DNA of 50,571 nucleotides from Acidiferrobacter sp. (GTDB taxonomy: Bacteria; Pseudomonadota; Gammaproteobacteria; Acidiferrobacterales; Acidiferrobacteraceae). Every line of letters begins with the position of its first letter. Positions within the stretch are counted from its first letter, which is position 1. The translations under genes and the position numbers were made by a program. Where the stretch lies: the NCBI GenBank assembly GCA_027449165.1, contig DAIDMD010000016.1, forward strand, positions 1-50,571, written 5' to 3'. The notes beneath the pieces were generated by a model. The model saw only the letters and a list, made by a program, of their open reading frames with translations. It ran no database searches and was not told where the DNA came from. Positions 34,674-47,691 of the stretch are shown here, one piece after another.

Positions 34674-34699
34674 GGAATAAATAACGATAGGGCATCGTC
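34674..34699 (+). promoter_or_regulatory. Candidate ECF-sigma promoter (autoregulatory) before the ECF gene
   Basis: GGAAT (34674-34678), 17 bp, CGTC (34696-34699). Many ECF sigma factors recognise a GGAAC/T-type -35 and a CGTC-type -10 with about this spacing, and often transcribe their own operon. A start near 34706 would leave a short leader with GAGGAG before the ATG. I saw no second copy upstream of other genes in the window. Confidence 0.45.
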
Positions 34700-34720: not shown

Positions 34721-35269
34721 ATGCGGATAAGCCGGCTGTTGTGCCGTTCGCGGGAGTTCAAGAAAACCCTGGAGGCCAATCGCCCGCGCCTCTATCGCAT
34801 CGCCTACGCCTGGACCCACAACCCCTCCCTGGCCGACGACCTGGTCCAGGAAACGCTCACCAAGGCCTGGCAGAAATACGATCAGCTGCGCGACCCCGGG
34901 GCCGAGGACGCCTGGCTTTTCAGCATCATGACCAACTGCTTTCGCGACTATCACCGGCGCGAGCGGGCGGTCGAGGACATCGACGAGATGGAGATCCCGT
35001 GCGACCATTGCCTGGAGACCGAGCACATGCGCTCGGAACTCGCCGTCCGGGTCCGCGCGGCGATCGCCCGGCTCCCCCAGGGGCAACGGCAGGTCGTGAC
35101 CCTGGTTGATCTAGAAGGCTTCTCTTATAATGAGGTTTCGTCGATACTCGGGATACCGGGCGGGACGGTCATGAGCCGGCTGTGCCGGGCCCGGGCGGCC
35201 TTGAAGGCCATGTTGCTGCCGGAGATGGCGGCCACTACCCAAATACCAAGGATGCGGAGGGTAAAATGA
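34721..35269 (+). CDS. ECF-family RNA polymerase sigma factor
   Basis: 182 aa, RpoE-like alternative sigma factor. Region 2 at about residues 20-85 holds RLYRIAYAWTHNPSLADDLVQETLTKAWQKYDQLRDPGAEDAWLFSIMTNCFRDYHRR. Region 4 at about 110-165 holds IARLPQGQRQVVTLVDLEGFSYNEVSSILGIPGGTVMSRLCRARAALK. A linker with CDHC near residue 90 lies between them. The ATG at 34721 has GAGGAG. Its stop overlaps the next ORF, which has the size, single membrane helix and position of its anti-sigma factor. A candidate ECF promoter precedes it. Confidence 0.95.
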   Translation: MRISRLLCRSREFKKTLEANRPRLYRIAYAWTHNPSLADDLVQETLTKAWQKYDQLRDPGAEDAWLFSIMTNCFRDYHRRERAVEDIDEMEIPCDHCLETEHMRSELAVRVRAAIARLPQGQRQVVTLVDLEGFSYNEVSSILGIPGGTVMSRLCRARAALKAMLLPEMAATTQIPRMRRVK

Positions 35270-35988
35270 GTGAACCGGAAGGACCGCGGCTCTCGGATGA
35301 GTTTCTCAACGCCTTCGTCGACAACCAGATCGACGGCGACGAAAAGGGCCGCGTCTACCCACTCATAAACGGCGACCAGGATCTGAACCGCAAGGTCTGC
35401 GAATTGCGCAAGATCTCGGATCTGGTGCGGCTTGCCTACGACGCCCCGCCGTCGGCGGCGGACCGTCGCGAACGGCCGCGCAGGCACCTGGCTGCGCGTC
35501 TGGCGCCGCTGCTTGCGCCCATCGTCCTGCTGCTTGGGATGATGCTCGGCTGGTCGCTGCGCGCCCTCTGGGCGCCGGCCGTTCCGCACCCGACGACCAT
35601 GATCGCCTCGGCCGCCGGCCCCACGACCAAGGTCTTGTTCCACCTGGACAATGGTGATCGCGCCCATATGCGCCAGGTCCTCGAGGAGGCCCAACACCTC
35701 CTCGCCCGTTACCGTGCCGATCACAAACACGCCAAGGTCGAGATCCTGGCCGATGGCCCGGGGCTCACCCTCCTGCGCCGTCATCTGTCGCCGTACCCGG
35801 CGCGCATCGCGGCGCTGAAGGCCCGATACCCGAATCTGATATTCGCCGCCTGCCAGGATACGATCAACCGGCTCGAGCGCCGCAAGGGCATCGAGCCGCA
35901 CCTCTTGCCGCAGGCGGTCGTCGTCCCCTCGGCCATCGCCGAGATCGTGCGTCTCCAGCACCGCGGCTGGACCTATATCCGTGTCTAA
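35266..35988 (+). CDS. Membrane anti-sigma factor with periplasmic DsrE-like domain
   Basis: 240 aa with three parts. Residues 1-65 are a short charged cytoplasmic domain (LSDEFLNAFVDNQIDGDEKG...NRKVCELRKISDLVRLAY) like the sigma-binding domain of many anti-sigma factors, without the H-x3-C-x2-C zinc motif. Residues 79-103 are one membrane helix. Residues 121-240 resemble DsrE/DUF1791 sulfur-relay proteins: KVLFHLDNGDRAHMRQVLEEAQHLL, then KARYPNLIFAACQDTINRL with a single Cys196, and LLPQAVVVPSAIAEIVRLQHRGWTYIRV. Cys45 is cytoplasmic. The fusion suggests the periplasmic domain senses a sulfur species or protein partner and controls sigma release (inference). ATGA-coupled to the sigma gene. 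Confidence 0.8.
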   Translation: MSEPEGPRLSDEFLNAFVDNQIDGDEKGRVYPLINGDQDLNRKVCELRKISDLVRLAYDAPPSAADRRERPRRHLAARLAPLLAPIVLLLGMMLGWSLRALWAPAVPHPTTMIASAAGPTTKVLFHLDNGDRAHMRQVLEEAQHLLARYRADHKHAKVEILADGPGLTLLRRHLSPYPARIAALKARYPNLIFAACQDTINRLERRKGIEPHLLPQAVVVPSAIAEIVRLQHRGWTYIRV

Positions 35989-37150
35989 GCCGGGACGCGC
36001 ATCGACCCTTGCCGGCCGGCGAGGGATTGGTGCCGCCGCAGGTCTCGCCCTGGGTCTCGCAAGCGGGCTTGCGCAGGCGCACACCTTCGTCTACGTCGCC
36101 AATTACAATAACAGCACGATCGGGGTCTACGCCGAGCGGGATGGGGGGCGCCTGGCGGCCATCCAGACGATACGGACGCCCGGGGGACCCGAATCCATTG
36201 TCGCCGACACGCTGGGCTATGTGGTCACCGCCGACAGCCTCGCGCACGCCGTCAGCGCCTATCGCGTGGACCGCACCGACGGGCGGCTCACCCCCGCCGG
36301 GGTGCGCCTCGAGGGGCCGCGCGCCAATCCGTTCAGCCTGACCGCAAGCCCGAGCGGCCGCTTTCTGTATGTCGCCAATAGCGGCGACAGCACCATAGGC
36401 ATCTTTCGGCTGCGCCCCCGGGCCGGCGCACTGGTGCGGATCGGGCGCGCCCGCGAGGTGCCGGGCGCCACCCCTTACGCCATGGCACTCACGCCGAACG
36501 GGCGTTACGCCTATGTCGCGAACTTCGGAAACGCGACGATCGGCATGTACCGGCGCACGCCCGGCCACGGCCGCCTTACGCCGCTCGGGGTGTTTCATGA
36601 GCCGCCGGGCGATGGTCCCTACGGCATGTCGGTCGGACCCGACGGGCGTTTTCTGTATGTCGCGGACTTCCGGGCGAACGTCCTGCTGGTCCTTGCGATC
36701 GGCCCCGACGGCCGGCTGACCCTGAAGGACCGGGTGACCGAACCCTTCGACCACCACCCGGACTCGCTCGTCATAGACCCGAGCGGTCGCTATCTGTTCG
36801 TTGCGAACACCAGCGCCAACGACATCTCGGTCTTTAGGATCGACCAGGCCAACGGCCGGATCACGCACACCGGGCGCGTGCCGACCGGCGGCTACCCGTT
36901 CTCGCTGACCCTCGACCGCGCCGCACGGTTCGTCTTCGCGGTCAATTACGGCAGCAGCACGATCAGCCGCTACCGCCTGAATCGGCACAACGGCGCGCTT
37001 ACGGCGATCGGGACCACGCCCGAGGCCTCGGACGCGGACCCCTATGGCATCGCGGCCCTTACCGTGCGGGCGCCGGGCGCTCGCCGGACTCCCAAAACCG
37101 CCGGTAGTCCTCCAGTATCCGCGGGTGATCGAAAACGAGCGGCACCGTGA
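35981..37150 (+). CDS. Exported YVTN/lactonase-like seven-bladed beta-propeller
   Basis: 389 aa. The N-terminus has a signal peptide ending near GLAQA-HT (residues 1-33). Repeats of about 45 residues follow, with GRFLYVANSGDSTIGIFRL, GRYAYVANFGNATIGMY, GRFLYVADF, GRYLFVANTSANDISVFRI and RFVFAVNYGSSTISRY, the pattern of lactonase/YVTN propellers. It may be a periplasmic lactonase or a binding scaffold. The start is GTG at 35981, overlapping the anti-sigma gene by 8 bp, so it is probably part of the sigma regulon. Its last 92 bp are antisense to the Nudix gene; the tail past residue 360 is low-complexity. Confidence 0.88.
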   Translation: MSKPGRASTLAGRRGIGAAAGLALGLASGLAQAHTFVYVANYNNSTIGVYAERDGGRLAAIQTIRTPGGPESIVADTLGYVVTADSLAHAVSAYRVDRTDGRLTPAGVRLEGPRANPFSLTASPSGRFLYVANSGDSTIGIFRLRPRAGALVRIGRAREVPGATPYAMALTPNGRYAYVANFGNATIGMYRRTPGHGRLTPLGVFHEPPGDGPYGMSVGPDGRFLYVADFRANVLLVLAIGPDGRLTLKDRVTEPFDHHPDSLVIDPSGRYLFVANTSANDISVFRIDQANGRITHTGRVPTGGYPFSLTLDRAARFVFAVNYGSSTISRYRLNRHNGALTAIGTTPEASDADPYGIAALTVRAPGARRTPKTAGSPPVSAGDRKRAAP

Positions 37151-37775: not shown

Positions 37776-38966
37776 ATGTTTCAGGGTCTTATCGTCTTGC
37801 CATGGTGGGGCTATGTGCTGGTGACGCTCGCGTTGACGCACATCACCATCGTATCGGTCACGATCTATCTGCACCGCCACCAGACGCATCGGGCGCTCGA
37901 CCTGCATCCGGCGGTCGCCCACTTCTTCCGTCTCTGGCTGTGGCTGACGACGGGCATGGTGACCAAGGACTGGGTCGCGATCCATCGCAAGCATCACGCG
38001 CGCTGTGAAACCGAAGACGACCCGCACAGCCCGCAGGTGCTCGGCCTGAAGAAGGTCCTGTGGCAAGGCGCCGAGCTCTATCGCGCGGAGGCCAAGAACG
38101 CCGAGACGCTCGCCAAGTTCGGGCACAACACCCCGGACGACTGGCTGGAGCGGCACCTGTACTCGCGATACAGCGCGACCGGCATCGTCATCACCCTGGC
38201 CATCGACGTGCTGTGCTTCGGCGCGATCGGTCTCACCATCTGGGCCGTCCAGATGGTCTGGATACCGTTTTTCGCGGCGGGCGTGGTAAATGGCGTGGGC
38301 CATTACTACTGCTACCGCAACTTCGAATGCCCGGACGCGGCAACGAATATCGTGCCGATCGGCATCCTTATCGGCGGCGAAGAGCTCCACAACAACCATC
38401 ACACCTACGCGAGCTCCGCCAAATTCTCCTGCAAGCCCTGGGAGTTCGACATCGGCTGGGGCTACATACGGGCCCTTGAGACCCTGGGTCTTGCCGTCGT
38501 CAAGAAGGTCGCGCCGGTACCCACCTACGCCGCGCCCAAGGAGACCTGCGACCTCGACACCGTCAAGGCGGTCATACACCATCGCTTCCAGATCATGGCG
38601 CGCTTTGCCCGCGAGGTCCTCCATAAAGTCCACGACGAGGAGGTCCAGAAGGCCGCGGCGGCCAATCGCCAGACCGCCAAGCTCCTGAAGGACGCCCGGC
38701 GCCTCATGGTGCGCGAAAAGACCCTCATAGGCGAGGCCGGACACCGGCAGCTGCAGGAGATCCTCGCCGCAAACAGCACACTACAGACGGTCTACACCAT
38801 GAAGGAGCGGCTCCAGGACGTGTGGCGGCGGTCGGCCACCACCCAGGAACAGCTCCTCGAGGCCCTTCAGGAATGGTGCCGCCAGGCGGAGGCGACGGGG
38901 ATACAGGCCTTGCACGATTTCTCGGCCGCCATCCGCACCTACGCGGCGACCTCGATCACGGCCTAG
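37776..38966 (+). CDS. desA: Acyl-lipid/acyl-CoA delta-9-type fatty acid desaturase with C-terminal helical extension
   Basis: Inner-membrane di-iron desaturase introducing a double bond into fatty acyl chains. 396 aa. Three histidine boxes: HRHQTH near 33, HRKHH near 70 and HNNHH near 208. About four hydrophobic segments surround them. The C-terminal part, about residues 270-396, is helical and charged (VREKTLIGEAGHRQLQEIL, then an LLEALQEWCRQAEATGIQALHDF stretch). It resembles the extension on proteobacterial DesA-type desaturases, which shares similarity with the C-terminus of ISL3-type transposases. The ATG at 37776 has AGAGGAAG. It controls membrane fluidity. Confidence 0.92.
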   Translation: MFQGLIVLPWWGYVLVTLALTHITIVSVTIYLHRHQTHRALDLHPAVAHFFRLWLWLTTGMVTKDWVAIHRKHHARCETEDDPHSPQVLGLKKVLWQGAELYRAEAKNAETLAKFGHNTPDDWLERHLYSRYSATGIVITLAIDVLCFGAIGLTIWAVQMVWIPFFAAGVVNGVGHYYCYRNFECPDAATNIVPIGILIGGEELHNNHHTYASSAKFSCKPWEFDIGWGYIRALETLGLAVVKKVAPVPTYAAPKETCDLDTVKAVIHHRFQIMARFAREVLHKVHDEEVQKAAAANRQTAKLLKDARRLMVREKTLIGEAGHRQLQEILAANSTLQTVYTMKERLQDVWRRSATTQEQLLEALQEWCRQAEATGIQALHDFSAAIRTYAATSITA

Positions 38967-42880: not shown

Positions 42881-44287
42881 ATGACCGACACGCCTTCCGC
42901 CCCGCGCTCAGGGCGCGCCGATCTTCCGCCGCCGGGCATTTTCAAATCCTACGACATTCGCGGCGTAGTCGATGTCGAACTGAAGCCCGAGCATGTGCGG
43001 GCCATCGGACAGGCGATCGGCAGCGAGGCGCGCGACCGCGGGCGCGCGACCGTGGTGATCGCCCGCGACGGGCGGCTCTCCGGACCCGGCCTGCTCGAGG
43101 CCTTGAGCGCCGGACTGACCGCGAGCGGCTGCGACGTCATCAATATCGGGCTGGTCCCGACCCCGCTGCTGTATTTCGCGACCTTGGCGTTCGAGACCGG
43201 ATCGGGCGTCATGCTCACCGGCAGCCACAACCCGCCCCAGTACAACGGCCTGAAGATCCTTCTGGGCGAAGAGACCCTGTCCGGCCCGCAGATCACGGCC
43301 CTCTACCAAAGGCTCGCCGAGAACCGGCTGCGCACGGGTCCCGGCAAAAGCCGCGCCGCCGACATCCGGCAGACCTATCTCGACCGGATCCTGGGCGATG
43401 TGCGGCTCGCCCGCCCGCTGAAGGTCGTTCTCGACTGCGGCAACGGCGCGACCGGGGAGATCGCCCCCGCCTTGTTCCGCGCGCTCGGCTGTTCGGTGAC
43501 CACCCTGTTCGGGGACATCGATGGGCGCTTCCCCAACCATCATCCGGATCCGAGCCAACCGGAAAACCTGAAAGATCTCCAAAAGCGCGTGGTCGCCGAC
43601 GGCGCCGATGTGGGGCTCGCGTTCGACGGTGACGGCGACCGGCTGGCGGTGGTGGCGCCCGACGGCGACATCATCTGGCCGGACCGGCAGCTCATCCTGT
43701 TCGCCCGCGACGTGTTGTCGCGCCACCCGGGCGGCCAGATCCTCTACGACGTGAAATGTTCGCGGGCCCTGGACGAGGCGATCCGGGAGGCCGGCGGCCG
43801 TCCGCTCATGTGGAAGAACGGGCACTCCGTCATCAAGGCCCGGATCCGCCAGGGCGACGTGCTGCTCGCGGGCGAGATGAGCGGCCACCTATTTTTCAAG
43901 GAGCGCTGGACCGGATTCGACGACGGCCTCTACGCCGGCGCGCGTCTTCTGGAGCTGCTCGCAAAGAGCCCCGTCTCCCCCGCCGCGCTGTTTGCGGCGC
44001 TCCCCAATACCGTCAATACCCCGGAGATCCAGATCCCGGTCGCCGAAAGCCCGCACGCGCTCGTGGATCTCCTGATCCGGGCCGCGCGCTTCCCGGACGC
44101 CAAAGTGACGACCATAGACGGGCTGCGCGTCGACTTCCCGGACGGCTTCGGGCTGATCCGCGCCTCCAATACGACCCCCATACTCGTTCTGCGCTTCGAG
44201 GGAACGACCCAGTCCGCGCTCGAGCGGATCCAGTCGCGTTTTCGCGAGCTTGTACGGGCGGTGCGGCCCATGCTCGCGGCCTGGTAG
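42881..44287 (+). CDS. algC: Phosphomannomutase/phosphoglucomutase
   Basis: Interconverts hexose 1- and 6-phosphates for lipopolysaccharide, exopolysaccharide and nucleotide-sugar synthesis. 468 aa (P. aeruginosa AlgC is 463). The phosphoserine loop is LTGSHNPPQYNGLK near residue 118, the metal-binding loop is AFDGDGDRLAVV near 250, the sugar loop is GEMSGHLFFKER near 335, and the phosphate loop is IRASNTTPILVLRFEG at the end. The ATG at 42881 has CAGGAGA, which rules out the longer upstream frame. Confidence 0.96.
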   Translation: MTDTPSAPRSGRADLPPPGIFKSYDIRGVVDVELKPEHVRAIGQAIGSEARDRGRATVVIARDGRLSGPGLLEALSAGLTASGCDVINIGLVPTPLLYFATLAFETGSGVMLTGSHNPPQYNGLKILLGEETLSGPQITALYQRLAENRLRTGPGKSRAADIRQTYLDRILGDVRLARPLKVVLDCGNGATGEIAPALFRALGCSVTTLFGDIDGRFPNHHPDPSQPENLKDLQKRVVADGADVGLAFDGDGDRLAVVAPDGDIIWPDRQLILFARDVLSRHPGGQILYDVKCSRALDEAIREAGGRPLMWKNGHSVIKARIRQGDVLLAGEMSGHLFFKERWTGFDDGLYAGARLLELLAKSPVSPAALFAALPNTVNTPEIQIPVAESPHALVDLLIRAARFPDAKVTTIDGLRVDFPDGFGLIRASNTTPILVLRFEGTTQSALERIQSRFRELVRAVRPMLAAW

Positions 44288-44322
44288 ACGGATCAGGGTC
44301 AGCGATTATTCCCGAACAATTT

Positions 44323-44345: not shown

Positions 44346-44423
44346 TTGTCATCTCGGCGATTTGGCGCCATCCTGTAGGGCTGTAGGATGACCCGACAAC
44401 CGATAACGAGGAGAACCATCATC

Positions 44424-44930
44424 ATGCGCCGATTTCTCATCGGAGCCGCGTTCGCACTGGGGGCCGTCGGCACCTGCTACGCGCATAACCCGCTGAACGC
44501 GATCCAAGGACCGCACATCGATCTCGACAAGACGGTGATCAAGGTGCCGTTGGCCAAGGGCGTCTCTCCGAAAGACGCGGTGCAGGCGATGAAGATCGAG
44601 GCCGACACCGTCAACATGAAATACGTGGGCGACCTGCCGCTCTCGAAGCAGCTGAAGAACATGGGCATAAAATCGGGCATCCTGACCGTCTACGAGTTTT
44701 GCAGCCCCCCCATAGCCCATCTCATGGTGGATGCCGACCCGGCCTTTGCCGCCTACCTGCCCTGCCGGATCACAATGGTCGAGGCCGGCGGCCGCGTGTG
44801 GCTCGAGATGCTGAATCTCAACATGATCATCAGGGGCGCGCACCTCAAGGGCAAACTGCGGACCCAGGCCCTGCGCGTTCGCAACGACCTCGACTCCATC
44901 CTCTGGGCCGGCGCCCGGGGCAGCTGGTAG
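44424..44930 (+). CDS. Secreted DUF302-domain protein
   Basis: 168 aa. The signal peptide is about residues 1-20 (FLIGAAFALGAVGTCYA). The mature protein, IDLDKTVIKVPLAKGVSPKDAVQAMKIEADTVNMKYVGDLPLSKQL onward, fits the DUF302 domain, with EFCSPPIAHLMVDADPAFAAYLPCRITMVEAGG carrying two cysteines (about 93 and 114). DUF302 proteins are small periplasmic proteins often found near sulfur and metal genes; function unknown. I start at 44424 rather than the in-frame ATG at 44388 because GAGGAGAACC precedes it. It is followed after 5 bp by the DsrE-like gene. Confidence 0.85.
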   Translation: MRRFLIGAAFALGAVGTCYAHNPLNAIQGPHIDLDKTVIKVPLAKGVSPKDAVQAMKIEADTVNMKYVGDLPLSKQLKNMGIKSGILTVYEFCSPPIAHLMVDADPAFAAYLPCRITMVEAGGRVWLEMLNLNMIIRGAHLKGKLRTQALRVRNDLDSILWAGARGSW

Positions 44931-44935
44931 GGGCC

Positions 44936-45352
44936 GTGAAGATACCGGCCCTGCTGGCCGGCACCCTCGTCGTCCTTTTGGCCTGTCCGGCGCCGGGCCG
45001 GGCGGCGACGACGACGGGGGTGGTCTTTCAGATCAGCGCCAAGTCCCCCGCCTCCTGGAAGATCGCGGTCCACAATGCCCGCAATCTGGAGCAGGCGACC
45101 GGTACGCCGGGCCGGCGCATCGAGATCGTGGTCCTCGGCCGCGCGATCGGCATGCTCCTCAGGAACTCGCCGGTGGCCCGCAACCTGGAAGCGCTCCATG
45201 CCTCGGGGGTCGTGGTCGAGGCCGGCAAGGCGGCCGTGCGAAGGGCGGGGCTCAAGGCTGCGGCCCTGTTGCCGTTCGTGCGTTATGTCCGCTCGACCGT
45301 AGCCGAGATCGTGCGCCGCGAGCGCCAGGGCTGGGCCTATGTCCAACCCTGA
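44936..45352 (+). CDS. Exported DsrE-like protein (possible lipoprotein)
   Basis: 138 aa starting at GTG. The leader KIPALLAGTLVVLLACPAPGRAA has a lipobox-like LLAC (Cys17), or it could be a cleaved signal peptide. The rest is a DsrE-family fold: TTGVVFQISAKSPASWKIAVHNARNLEQA, RRIEIVVLGRAIGMLL, and a C-terminus FVRYVRSTVAEIVRRERQGWAYVQP that mirrors the end of the anti-sigma factor at 35266. No catalytic cysteine remains in the mature part. Secreted DsrE proteins occur beside sulfur oxidation genes. It is coupled to a DUF302 gene 5 bp upstream. Confidence 0.82.
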   Translation: MKIPALLAGTLVVLLACPAPGRAATTTGVVFQISAKSPASWKIAVHNARNLEQATGTPGRRIEIVVLGRAIGMLLRNSPVARNLEALHASGVVVEAGKAAVRRAGLKAAALLPFVRYVRSTVAEIVRRERQGWAYVQP

Positions 45353-45387: not shown

Positions 45388-46314
45388 CTAGGCGCGCAAC
45401 GGCGGCGCCCCCTTCGGGCCATCGTAGTGGTAGCGGCGCAGAATCGCCTGACCCTCCGGGGCGCGCAGCCAGGCGATGAAGCGATCGGCCGCCGTCCGGT
45501 TCCTGCTGGTCTCCAGGGCCGCCGCGTAGAAGACGAGCGGCGACGGTCTGTAGACCCGGCCCTTTAGCCGCAACGACACCGCGTCGTAGGCCTTCTCATA
45601 AGCGGCATCGCCGAGATTGATGGCAGGCGGCAAGGAGAGATACGGCAGGCCCAAGGCCGCCGGCTGGGTCTTGTAGGCCGAACTCGCCTCGAGCTGCCCG
45701 CCCTGGAGGCGCGCCATCACCTCGGGCTCCGGGAAGATCTGCCGATCGTTGACGACGGGACCCAGGATCCGGCGGGCGAGGCCGGGCTGGCGATAGTAGC
45801 GCGCGGCTAGCCTCATCATGAAGACGACGTTGAGACCCTGCGGGTCCGTCAGGGGGTCGGTGCGCCCGAACCGGACACCGGGCTTCTCCAGGATCTGCCA
45901 CCACGCCCTCTGCCCGGGCCGATCCGCCCCGCGAAAGGCCCGGCTGACGGGCGTCTGCGCGCCATAGGCGATCACGAGCTCGGTACTGGCGATCGCGAAG
46001 GCCTCGCGGGCCTTTCCGGCGCCCAGCACGATGTCCATGGGGCCGCGGGTGATCGATAGGAAAACATCCGGGTGGATGATGCCGCCCACGATCATATGGG
46101 CCAGTCCCAGCGCCCCCTGCGCCCGGCCTTCGACGCGCAGGGACAACTCGCGGGCCACGGCCGGCGCCACACCGCCGTGCATGACCGCCCCCATGGAGCC
46201 CGCGTAGGCGACATGCAGGCTCGTCCTGACCCGGGCCTCGCCCGGCATGGGCGCCGCGAGGGCCCCGACGCCAAGCGCTGCCGACTGCAAGAATTCCCTT
46301 CGCGTAAGACTCAC
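45388..46314 (-). CDS. Tat-exported extracellular solute-binding protein (ModA/WtpA-like)
   Basis: 308 aa. The N-terminus MSLTRREFLQSAALGVGALAAP has the twin-arginine motif and a hydrophobic stretch, so export is by Tat. The body follows the type II periplasmic binding fold: LHVAYAGSMGAVMHGGVAPAV opens it, and LGLPYLSLPPAINLGD and AADRFIAWLRAPEGQAILRRYHY end it. The pattern is closest to molybdate/tungstate binding proteins of the WtpA/ModA group. No ABC permease or ATPase genes are adjacent, so the transporter is elsewhere or the protein has another binding role. Confidence 0.75.
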   Translation of the reverse strand: MSLTRREFLQSAALGVGALAAPMPGEARVRTSLHVAYAGSMGAVMHGGVAPAVARELSLRVEGRAQGALGLAHMIVGGIIHPDVFLSITRGPMDIVLGAGKAREAFAIASTELVIAYGAQTPVSRAFRGADRPGQRAWWQILEKPGVRFGRTDPLTDPQGLNVVFMMRLAARYYRQPGLARRILGPVVNDRQIFPEPEVMARLQGGQLEASSAYKTQPAALGLPYLSLPPAINLGDAAYEKAYDAVSLRLKGRVYRPSPLVFYAAALETSRNRTAADRFIAWLRAPEGQAILRRYHYDGPKGAPPLRA

Positions 46315-46392: not shown

Positions 46393-47691
46393 TCAGGTTT
46401 TGGGGAGGGTCACACCCTTCTGGCCTTGATACTTTCCGCCGCGATCCTTGTAGGAGGTCTCGCAGGGCTCGTCGGCCTCGAAGAAGATCACTTGCGCCAC
46501 GCCCTCGTTCGCGTAGATCTTCGCGGGCAAAGGCGAGGTGTTCGAGAATTCGAGTGTGACATGACCCTCCCACTCCGGCTCGAAGGGCGTCACGTTGACG
46601 ATGATGCCGCAGCGCGCGTAGGTGGAATTGTGGACGATGAGTCCGTTGGCCAGGAAGTTGTGCGGTCCCGGGACCTCGATGTCGTAGACCGGGGCCTCCC
46701 CGGCCGCGCGGATGGCGCTGACCCGGTCCCATTCGGTCGAGGCTCGGGCGCTGATCCCGTCTGTGCCGTTGCCACGATGTTCCAAGGCCTCCCCGCGCAG
46801 CAACAGACGGGCGGCGCGGCCCTCTTCGACCATGCGGCAGGCATACCCGAGGCGTGTGGCCAGGTGACGGATATCGTCTAATACCGACCGCGCGGCACAT
46901 AGACCCTCGGCGGCGCGGCCGCCCCAAACCGCCTCCAGAAAGGCCGCTATGTCGGCGCGCGGGGCCCGGAACACCGCCCTCGGGATCCCGTCGATCCCAC
47001 CGCCGTCCATCTGGTCCCGAACCCAGCGCCCGAGCCGGCCGGGCGCAGACAGCGGCTCCGCCCCGAAAAACGGCGCCGAGGCGGCGGCCGCGATGCGGTC
47101 GCCGACGGCGAGATCCGAAAGGGCGGCCCATCCCTTGGGCGTGAGCAGCGGATGGTTGGCGGTCGCGGTCAGCGCAAGACCGCTTTCTGTGGTAAGCCGC
47201 CAGACCGGCTTGGTCCCGTGGGCCGCAAGCGCCGATACCCGGGCCTTACGCAAACCCCCGGGCCCTAAGGCCGCGGTGCGCCGCGCGGACGTCCAGTTCG
47301 CGATCGGCAGATAGTCGCCGGTATCGGCGTCGAGCACCCGCGTGTCCCCCGTCACGCATTTGCCGAGGCAGATCGTCAGCACGTTGCGGGGGATGCGGAA
47401 ATACTCGACCGTGCGCGCCAGCGCGAAGGAATTGGGCGGTATGATGCAGACGTCGCCCCGAAAATCGACGAAGCTGTTGGCGTCGAAGTTCTTGGGGTCG
47501 ACGATCGCGGAATTGATGTTCGTGAAGATCTTGAACTCGTTGGAGCAGCGGATATCGTAGCCGTAGCTCGACGTGCCGAAGGAGACGAGGCGCTCGCCGG
47601 CGCGCGACTTGACCTGGCCCGGCTCGAACGGCTCGATCATGCCGTGATCCCGCGCCATACGCCGGATCCACTTATCCGATTTTATGCTCAT
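46393..47691 (-). CDS. dcd: dCTP deaminase interrupted by an in-frame intein
   Basis: Deaminates dCTP to dUTP for thymidylate synthesis. The precursor is 432 aa; removal of residues 112-355 leaves 188 aa, exactly the length of this Dcd family. The N-extein ends NVLTICLGK and the C-extein begins STYARCGIIVNVTPFEPEWEGHVTLEFSN. The extein junction serine aligns with the catalytic Ser111 of E. coli Dcd (RSSLAR versus KSTYAR), and Glu of HVTLEF aligns with Glu138. So the enzyme cannot work until the intein splices. The start at 47691 is ATG. It lies 45 bp downstream of apbC. Confidence 0.95.
   Translation of the reverse strand: MSIKSDKWIRRMARDHGMIEPFEPGQVKSRAGERLVSFGTSSYGYDIRCSNEFKIFTNINSAIVDPKNFDANSFVDFRGDVCIIPPNSFALARTVEYFRIPRNVLTICLGKCVTGDTRVLDADTGDYLPIANWTSARRTAALGPGGLRKARVSALAAHGTKPVWRLTTESGLALTATANHPLLTPKGWAALSDLAVGDRIAAAASAPFFGAEPLSAPGRLGRWVRDQMDGGGIDGIPRAVFRAPRADIAAFLEAVWGGRAAEGLCAARSVLDDIRHLATRLGYACRMVEEGRAARLLLRGEALEHRGNGTDGISARASTEWDRVSAIRAAGEAPVYDIEVPGPHNFLANGLIVHNSTYARCGIIVNVTPFEPEWEGHVTLEFSNTSPLPAKIYANEGVAQVIFFEADEPCETSYKDRGGKYQGQKGVTLPKT
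46627..47358 (-). other. Intein in Dcd (244 aa) with decayed homing-endonuclease region
   Basis: Intein residues 1-244 equal precursor residues 112-355. Block A is CVTGDTRVLD (Cys1). Block B is LTTESGLALTATANHPLLT, with the T-x-x-H. Block F is PVYDIEVPGPHNFLANG. Block G is LIVHN followed by Ser+1 of the extein, so the His-Asn-Ser end is intact. All residues for class 1 splicing are present. Between blocks B and F, about residues 120-190, IPRAVFRAPRADIAAFLEAVWGG and ARSVLDDIRHLATRLGYACRM resemble the second half of a LAGLIDADG endonuclease, but the catalytic Asp positions are missing (FLEAVWGGRAA). Homing is probably dead; splicing should work. Confidence 0.93.

Follow-up and report, generated by a model that had tools for sequence, protein, structure and literature searches.

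A secreted DUF302–DsrE gene pair and its possible link to an ECF sigma factor with a putative DsrE-type anti-sigma factor in Acidiferrobacter

The DNA analyzed here ("the window," the whole stretch of 50,571 nt) is contig C16 of an Acidiferrobacter metagenome-assembled genome that consists of 171 contigs and is 77% complete. Two adjacent forward-strand genes encode a secreted DUF302 protein (44424..44930, +) and a secreted DsrE-like protein with a GTG start codon (44936..45352, +). An earlier note, made from the letters alone, had described two ORFs separated by 5 bp whose products are both exported, and this was borne out, the N-terminal signal sequences of both proteins being judged by reading their N-termini. 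The first protein matched the Pfam DUF302 model (PF03625) with 51.7 bits (8.3e-14) against a cut-off of 23, and its predicted structure matched 1q9u, 7tj1, and 1j3m in a fold search, so that it belongs to DUF302 by both family and fold. Its residues Cys93 and Cys114 were invariant in the alignments, both in 14/14 rows of the same family and in 11/11 rows of an alignment that included more distant relatives.

The assignment of the second protein was based on a match to the DsrE-like structure 1l1s (MTH1491; phmmer E-value 1.3e-9), an alignment, and a tree. Its Pfam DsrE score of 16.8 bits was below the cut-off of 22.7, whereas a relative encoded elsewhere (L031) passed the same model with 26.6 bits. 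The lipobox-like LLAC pointed out in the earlier note did not hold up as a lipoprotein signal: of 14 aligned family rows, just five had a Cys at that position (the window, L105, L106, L107, and L109; alignment A2), and the lipoprotein reading was therefore rejected. Because this Cys is unconserved and is followed by a small-residue site (GRAA), an ordinary secreted protein is likelier. The conserved Cys of DsrE proteins is a sulfur acceptor. It was present in all 16 family orthologs, and the window protein, alone among the 17 examined, has a GGC codon in its place (Gly97; 45224..45226, +; from the alignments) and thus lacks this hallmark of the DsrE family. With the Cys gone, the window DsrE may be decaying, or it could serve solely as a subunit that is not a carrier.

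The DUF302–DsrE pair was kept in 16 of 17 genomes of the same family, the exception being G015, and in the aligned family rows the identity to the window proteins was 78–93% for DUF302 and 40–69% for DsrE. The block that runs from an ECF sigma factor gene and its anti-sigma factor gene, 9 kb upstream, through pgm to the pair was retained in 13 family loci, of which one (L113) was cut before the sigma gene, and in G003, G010, and G011 the two ends of the block were on different contigs. Since the pair forms the end of a conserved block of housekeeping genes, its nearness to the anti-sigma gene is weak evidence for a link between them. On the other side, the pair adjoins a reverse-strand gene for a TAT-type solute-binding protein of the tungstate/molybdate-like kind (45388..46314, −; Pfam SBP_bac_11), for which the NCBIfam TAT signal model was over its cut-off and WtpA was below; it is an uncertain member of the unit formed by the pair.

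The sigma factor (34721..35269, +) contains both region 2 and region 4 (Pfam Sigma70_r2, 62.8 bits; Sigma70_r4_2, 59.8 bits). The next gene (35266..35988, +) starts with a 4-base overlap that includes the sigma stop codon and encodes a membrane protein with a cytoplasmic N-terminus, a predicted transmembrane helix (residues 73–100), and a periplasmic domain (residues 120–240). Regions 2 and 4, an overlapping downstream transmembrane protein, and an autoregulatory promoter motif together make this an ECF sigma/anti-sigma pair. Inhibition of the sigma factor by the second protein is putative, the NCBIfam anti-sigma model giving weak matches, far below its cut-off, to two orthologs. Pfam alone gave no DsrE match in the anti-sigma factor. 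Its profile, by comparison, matched 1l1s over positions 123–240 (E-value 3.8e-14), and the structure prediction showed helix 73–100 and a confident alpha/beta domain at 120–240 (block pLDDT 83–96). With this domain as the query, the first nine Foldseek matches were all DsrE-like folds, including 1l1s (TMt 0.87), ST0148, DsrEFH chains, and YchN, five of them at E ≤ 0.001. By profile and predicted model alike, the anti-sigma factor thus has a DsrE domain as its periplasmic half, the presumed sensor. Its Cys196, in the sequence FAACQDT (codon 35851..35853, +), was invariant in the alignments, in 12/12 sequences and in 67/67 of a larger set. A weak NCBIfam match to thiosulfate dehydrogenase at the tail of the anti-sigma factor was absent from the two orthologs scanned and was not used. 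A short contig of this assembly (L123, G000:C75:977-1702) carries a second copy of the sigma/anti-sigma genes, 83% identical, which may come from a contaminating sibling genome.

The earlier note had also drawn attention to the C-terminus of the DsrE-like protein as a near copy of that of the anti-sigma factor. This likeness exists (8 of 14 anchored positions), but it is unspecific, being ordinary for DsrE proteins: compared with the same tail, seven rows of exported DsrE proteins labeled "pgmDsrE" averaged 7.7/14, and the 44 usable of 46 anti-sigma rows averaged 7.2 (range 4–9). As it is a DsrE-family signature, we rejected the C-terminal copy as specific evidence of a special contact. The resemblance extends over the whole periplasmic domain, a point absent from the earlier note, with residues 22–137 of the window DsrE sharing 30% identity with the anti-sigma domain (E-value 9e-5). 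The note itself suggested a shared ligand or a direct protein contact that signals to the sigma factor. In a more specific form of the contact reading, the anti-sigma DsrE domain would form a mixed oligomer with the exported DsrE, either alone or together with DUF302, as DsrE does with DsrF and DsrH, and this contact would control the sigma factor. Both proteins being DsrE folds, with DsrEFH chains among the fold-search matches, is in keeping with this, and an archaeal DsrE3A has been described as forming a complex with TusA in the available part of one article (PMC4175335). The unspecific tail argues the other way, as do the loci with no adjacent exported DsrE and the trees described below, and we regard a mixed oligomer as rather improbable.

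The neighborhood of the anti-sigma factor was followed beyond the family by taking the best 80 of 92 anti-sigma relatives and removing the nearest 14, from the window's own family (L124–L137). The 66 loci left (L138–L203) were placed outside the family by inference from their identity (46% or less). Because they were selected by anti-sigma similarity, neighbors of the anti-sigma gene are over-represented in them, and because some loci share genomes (L175/L182 and L173/L198; many are from the same genomes as our G handles), the counts are not independent. Named carriers among the best 80 of the 92 relatives are, for example, Sulfuricella, Sulfuritalea, Sulfurimicrobium, Thiobacillus, Halothiobacillus, Guyparkeria, and Sedimenticola, all of which we take to be sulfur oxidizers. 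An exported DsrE gene adjoined the sigma/anti-sigma pair in 48 of the 66 loci, in tandem in 18 and divergently in 30, an adjacency that would suit a mixed oligomer. The 18 loci that lacked one by the rule used speak against it, although two of them (L170 and L175) have one by eye; some of the 18 stop at a contig end, and several have a soxY, Sulf_transp, or DsbC_N gene at the promoter motif. DsrE matches numbered 52 in the 293 kb near the sigma/anti-sigma pair versus 17 in the 765 kb farther out, and the Cys was present in all 52 sigma-adjacent DsrE proteins. Within the family, G015 carries an exported DsrE gene in tandem, overlapping the end of its anti-sigma gene; this DsrE, like that of the window, has no Cys, and the order sigma–anti-sigma–DsrE recurs in other families of the order. 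In the window, a lactonase-like beta-propeller gene (35981..37150, +; Pfam Lactonase 3.2e-40) lies, by synteny, where other families in the order have the exported DsrE gene.

Two DsrE trees were built, the first mostly from loci around the anti-sigma gene and the second with other DsrE genes added; domains under 40 bits were left out of both. From the first, L007, L122, L123, L132–L137, and L141 were removed as duplicates or near-duplicates, and L124–L130 were not used. The second contained 45 anti-sigma loci, the window, and the extra DsrE loci, with the anti-sigma rows reduced from 46 to 25. Of the 21 rows of divergent, sigma-adjacent DsrE proteins, 15 fell into one clade with the window DsrE (38 rows, support 99/99), and the other six lay outside it. 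The window DsrE also grouped with DsrE proteins of other families whose genes lie next to pgm, dcd, or Sulf_transp. The "pgmDsrE" label of these rows is loose, since pgm is in view only in L037, while L031, L033, L035, L038, and L039 show dcd or mrp and L036 neither; the genes adjoining these relatives are dcd, Sulf_transp (by Pfam in L031 and L038), and a rhodanese gene (L036). Descent of the window DsrE from a relocated gene of the tandem arrangement was rejected, because G021 and G030 have both kinds and the tandem genes belong to another clade. In both trees, the exported DsrE proteins and the anti-sigma DsrE domains formed separate, long-diverged clades, which again argues against a mixed oligomer of the two.

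An ECF-type promoter motif, GGAATAA-N15-CGTC, lies before the sigma gene (34674..34699, +), where the family alignment showed it in 16 of 17 family genomes with a visible sigma upstream region, that of the window included; G015 has an N14 spacer, and the site in G008 is cut by a contig end. The motif has both the GGAAT and the CGTC elements of the ECF26 sulfite circuit. In the 1,058 kb of the 66 loci, the strict pattern GGAATAW-N15-CGTC matched 90 times, before 52 of 66 sigma genes, before 25 of 33 divergent DsrE genes, and at 13 other sites, whereas two control patterns gave no match in the same DNA. The 13 other sites preceded three second ECF genes, two DsrE genes, four SoxY-like genes, one Sulf_transp (YeeE-type) gene, two DsbC_N genes, and one GlnE-like ORF (identified by reading, approximately 230 nt downstream of its motif). 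The SoxY-like genes were over the Pfam SoxY cut-off in L168, L172, and L200 and below it in the L155 fragment. The two DsbC_N domains (L187:519-544 and L190:47-72) belong to secreted proteins. Approximately 1.7 kb upstream of the first pair, L142 and L143 carry another ECF gene, which has a motif of its own, and another gene for a protein containing DsrE; this suggests duplicated circuits.

A looser pattern matched 47 times in eight genomes of the window's own family, versus 8 times for a backwards control, and 30 of the 47 matches were examined as loci. Six were at sigma genes and four at DsbD genes (L204, L206, L210, and L213; Pfam DsbD confirmed for L206). Four were at SoxY genes, two identified by Pfam SoxY (L218 and L219, the latter followed by an ORF for SoxZ by Pfam) and two cut by contig ends (L221 and L225); L225, on contig C24, is from the window's own genome, where the motif precedes a truncated soxY (87% identity over 47 residues). 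Three preceded a CysQ-like gene (L214, L215, and L226; Pfam Inositol_P for L214, "CysQ" by reading), and five, in the form GGAATAA-N14-CGTC, preceded a gene for a TAT-exported DsrE between dnaJ and dapB (L207, L208, L211, L228, and L230; Pfam DsrE for L228). Three were reversed sites behind pgm (L212, L216, and L217), and five loci (L222, L223, L227, L229, and L232) showed none of the targets looked for. Our reading of these sequences is that the ECF factor and a DsrE-type sensor form a circuit that probably controls sulfur oxidation, although another ECF factor of the same specificity could use the motif sites.

A second GGAATAA-N15-CGTC motif lies in the gap between pgm and the DUF302 gene, pointing back into pgm (44287..44312, −). 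The alignment showed it in all 14 genomes of the genus, once as GGAATAT, always in the same orientation and with the exact N15 spacing while the spacer letters change; it was absent from all three genomes of the next genus, which has the same DUF302–DsrE pair. No motif was found behind pgm in 9 of 9 loci where the available stretch shows no DsrE match after it. Among 14 other exported-DsrE loci, a reversed motif was located upstream in G038, G041, and G050 (L037, L039, and L032) and in none of the other 11; G050 has a forward motif too, and the gene behind its reversed motif is not pgm. The reversed site therefore seems linked to some exported DsrE genes, yet it faces away from them. One explanation of its constant orientation would be that it drives an antisense RNA against pgm, with the DUF302–DsrE pair as a bystander. 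The absence of the motif behind pgm where no DsrE follows and the reversed motifs found upstream of DsrE, in one case with a different gene behind, count against this, and the fourfold sites at the 3′ end of pgm showed no clear extra conservation (0.60 over only four sites versus an overall mean of 0.51). We consider an antisense role very improbable. Upstream of the DUF302 gene in the forward direction, we saw in the alignment, by eye, a sigma-70-like promoter candidate, TTGTCA-N17-CATCCT (44346..44374, +). The strict pattern gave no match here, and the only trace of a forward sigma motif before DUF302 was a degenerate GGAAATT-like element whose −10 is not conserved, again by eye; a forward ECF motif driving DUF302 was rejected on these grounds.

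Outside the family, the DUF302 gene and the anti-sigma factor are not coupled. In 39 genomes of other families in the order, a strong match to the anti-sigma factor (E < 1e-25) occurred in 30 and one to DUF302 (E < 1e-20) in only 4; 26 of the 30 genomes with the anti-sigma factor had no DUF302 at this threshold. No DsrE gene stood next to DUF302 in the three readable cases (L061, L062, and L064) of these four genomes. Co-occurrence of the three genes, a check proposed in the earlier note, thus failed for DUF302, and its view of the pair as periplasmic partners of the sensor survives in part: the link holds for the exported DsrE family, through the 48 of 66 loci, the motif, and the clade, but it is only partial for this particular pair, in which DUF302 is mostly missing elsewhere, the Cys is lost, and the motif is reversed.

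Further indications of function come from contig C50 of the same genome (L122, G000:C50:36000-52000), where DsrE2–TusA is followed by a sox-like cluster with two exported DsrE proteins, SBP_bac_11, SoxZ, DUF302, and a 5′-nucleotidase-like protein that we read as SoxB. According to the accessible portions of the respective articles, soxA and soxB of Acidithiobacillia flank DUF302, for which a part in oxidizing trithionate has been guessed (PMC5037610), and the sox operon of T. thioparus is without DUF302 (PMC5248467). The presence of DUF302 and DsrE in a sox-like cluster, their sulfur-gene neighbors, and the published sox clusters with DUF302 make periplasmic sulfur handling the best reading of the pair. 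The pair could then simply be an ordinary periplasmic accessory operon of sulfur oxidation that has no particular connection to the anti-sigma factor; pair and anti-sigma factor would each just be common in sulfur oxidizers, and the DsrE fold would be shared by ancestry. The sox-cluster settings of DUF302, its rare co-occurrence with the anti-sigma factor outside the family, and the sigma-70-like promoter in place of a good forward sigma motif agree with such an operon. A sigma-type motif kept beside the pair throughout the genus with exact spacing, its absence behind pgm where no DsrE follows, and the membership of the window DsrE in a clade that is sigma-linked elsewhere are harder to accommodate, and we consider a plain accessory operon possible but doubtful.

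Known systems resemble the window circuit in part. In the available text of two articles, a −35 of GGAAT and a −10 of CGTC are reported for sulfite-responsive ECF factors (PMC6527743) and, taking the two together, for tetrathionate-responsive ones as well (PMC6527743 and PMC3511301). These ECF26-type circuits (RpoE4 of S. meliloti and SigE of Starkeya novella; RpoE1 with tetrathionate) share with the window an ECF factor with a cognate anti-sigma factor, the GGAAT/CGTC promoter, and sulfur targets (PMC6527743 and PMC3511301), a likeness to ECF26 in promoter consensus and circuit layout. Their targets in the same text are sulfite dehydrogenases, with no mention there of a DsrE domain, whereas those in the window's family include soxY, DsrE, and DsbD. 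ECF factors of Arcobacter affect sox genes, as we propose here, although the word DsrE is absent from the accessible text (PMC3445524) and relatedness to the window circuit is not implied. Compared with the DsrE/DsrF family (DsrEFH, MTH1491, ST0148, and YchN), the versions described here have the same fold and Cys loop, the Cys itself being lost in the window's exported DsrE, but are exported or fused to a membrane anti-sigma factor. The DUF302 protein of Acidithiobacillia, likewise from a sulfur oxidizer, is encoded in the sox cluster as far as the available text describes (PMC5037610), whereas that of the window is paired with a DsrE gene after pgm and is not part of a sox cluster. Finally, DsrE3A of Metallosphaera, which transfers thiosulfonate with TusA, takes it up from tetrathionate at its Cys and has no signaling role in the portion of the article available (PMC4175335); we set it beside the window proteins by description only. 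Among the literature matches listed, a scope that stops short of subscription papers and supplements, the text available held no description of a DsrE-type anti-sigma factor.

We propose that the DUF302–DsrE pair is a periplasmic sulfur-handling unit that shares a functional network with the ECF sigma factor and the DsrE-type anti-sigma factor, with no contact between them being required, a proposal to which we would give an even chance. A sulfur species in the periplasm, whether sulfane sulfur, tetrathionate, sulfite, or a form bound to a carrier, would modify or displace the anti-sigma DsrE domain at Cys196; the ECF sigma factor would then be released and turn on Sox, DsrE, and thiol-redox genes; and the pair would produce, carry, or remove the sensed species. 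The signal, any contact, and the regulation are what we infer from homology, the conserved Cys, the gene neighborhood, and the motif, which are read from the sequences themselves. In favor of the proposal are the DsrE-type sensor with its invariant Cys, the adjacent exported DsrE genes, the shared motif, the clade membership, and the soxY, dsbD, CysQ-like, and TAT-DsrE targets. Against it, the motif next to the pair points away from the two genes and is missing in the next genus despite the same pair, DUF302 is mostly missing outside the family, the window DsrE has no Cys, and some divergent DsrE rows are off its clade.

Because the window DsrE shares its fold with the sensor half of a regulator that apparently switches on sulfur-oxidation genes, this acid-loving bacterium may sense sulfur through a relative of its own sulfur-handling proteins. 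To our knowledge, how sulfur-oxidizing bacteria sense inorganic sulfur in the periplasm is poorly understood, and a sigma circuit whose sensor is related to sulfur carriers is testable, with its invariant Cys and likely targets named. A more general version, in which the invariant anti-sigma Cys receives sulfane sulfur or thiosulfonate from exported DsrE carriers and the ECF sigma factor is thereby released to turn on soxYZ, DsrE, and periplasmic thiol-redox genes across sulfur-oxidizing Proteobacteria, is a tentative idea that we hold more likely wrong than right; if true, a sigma factor would have a sulfur relay as its input.

Two other genes of the window have unusual structures. The dCTP deaminase gene (46393-47691, −) contains an in-frame intein (Pfam DCD and Intein_splicing), and the dcd ORF of G021 (L031) seems, by reading, to carry an insert at a different place. 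A fatty-acid desaturase gene (37776-38963, +) encodes a protein whose C-terminal third matches the DDE domain of ISL3 transposases (Pfam 5.2e-13), and similarly long ORFs occur in other families of the order.
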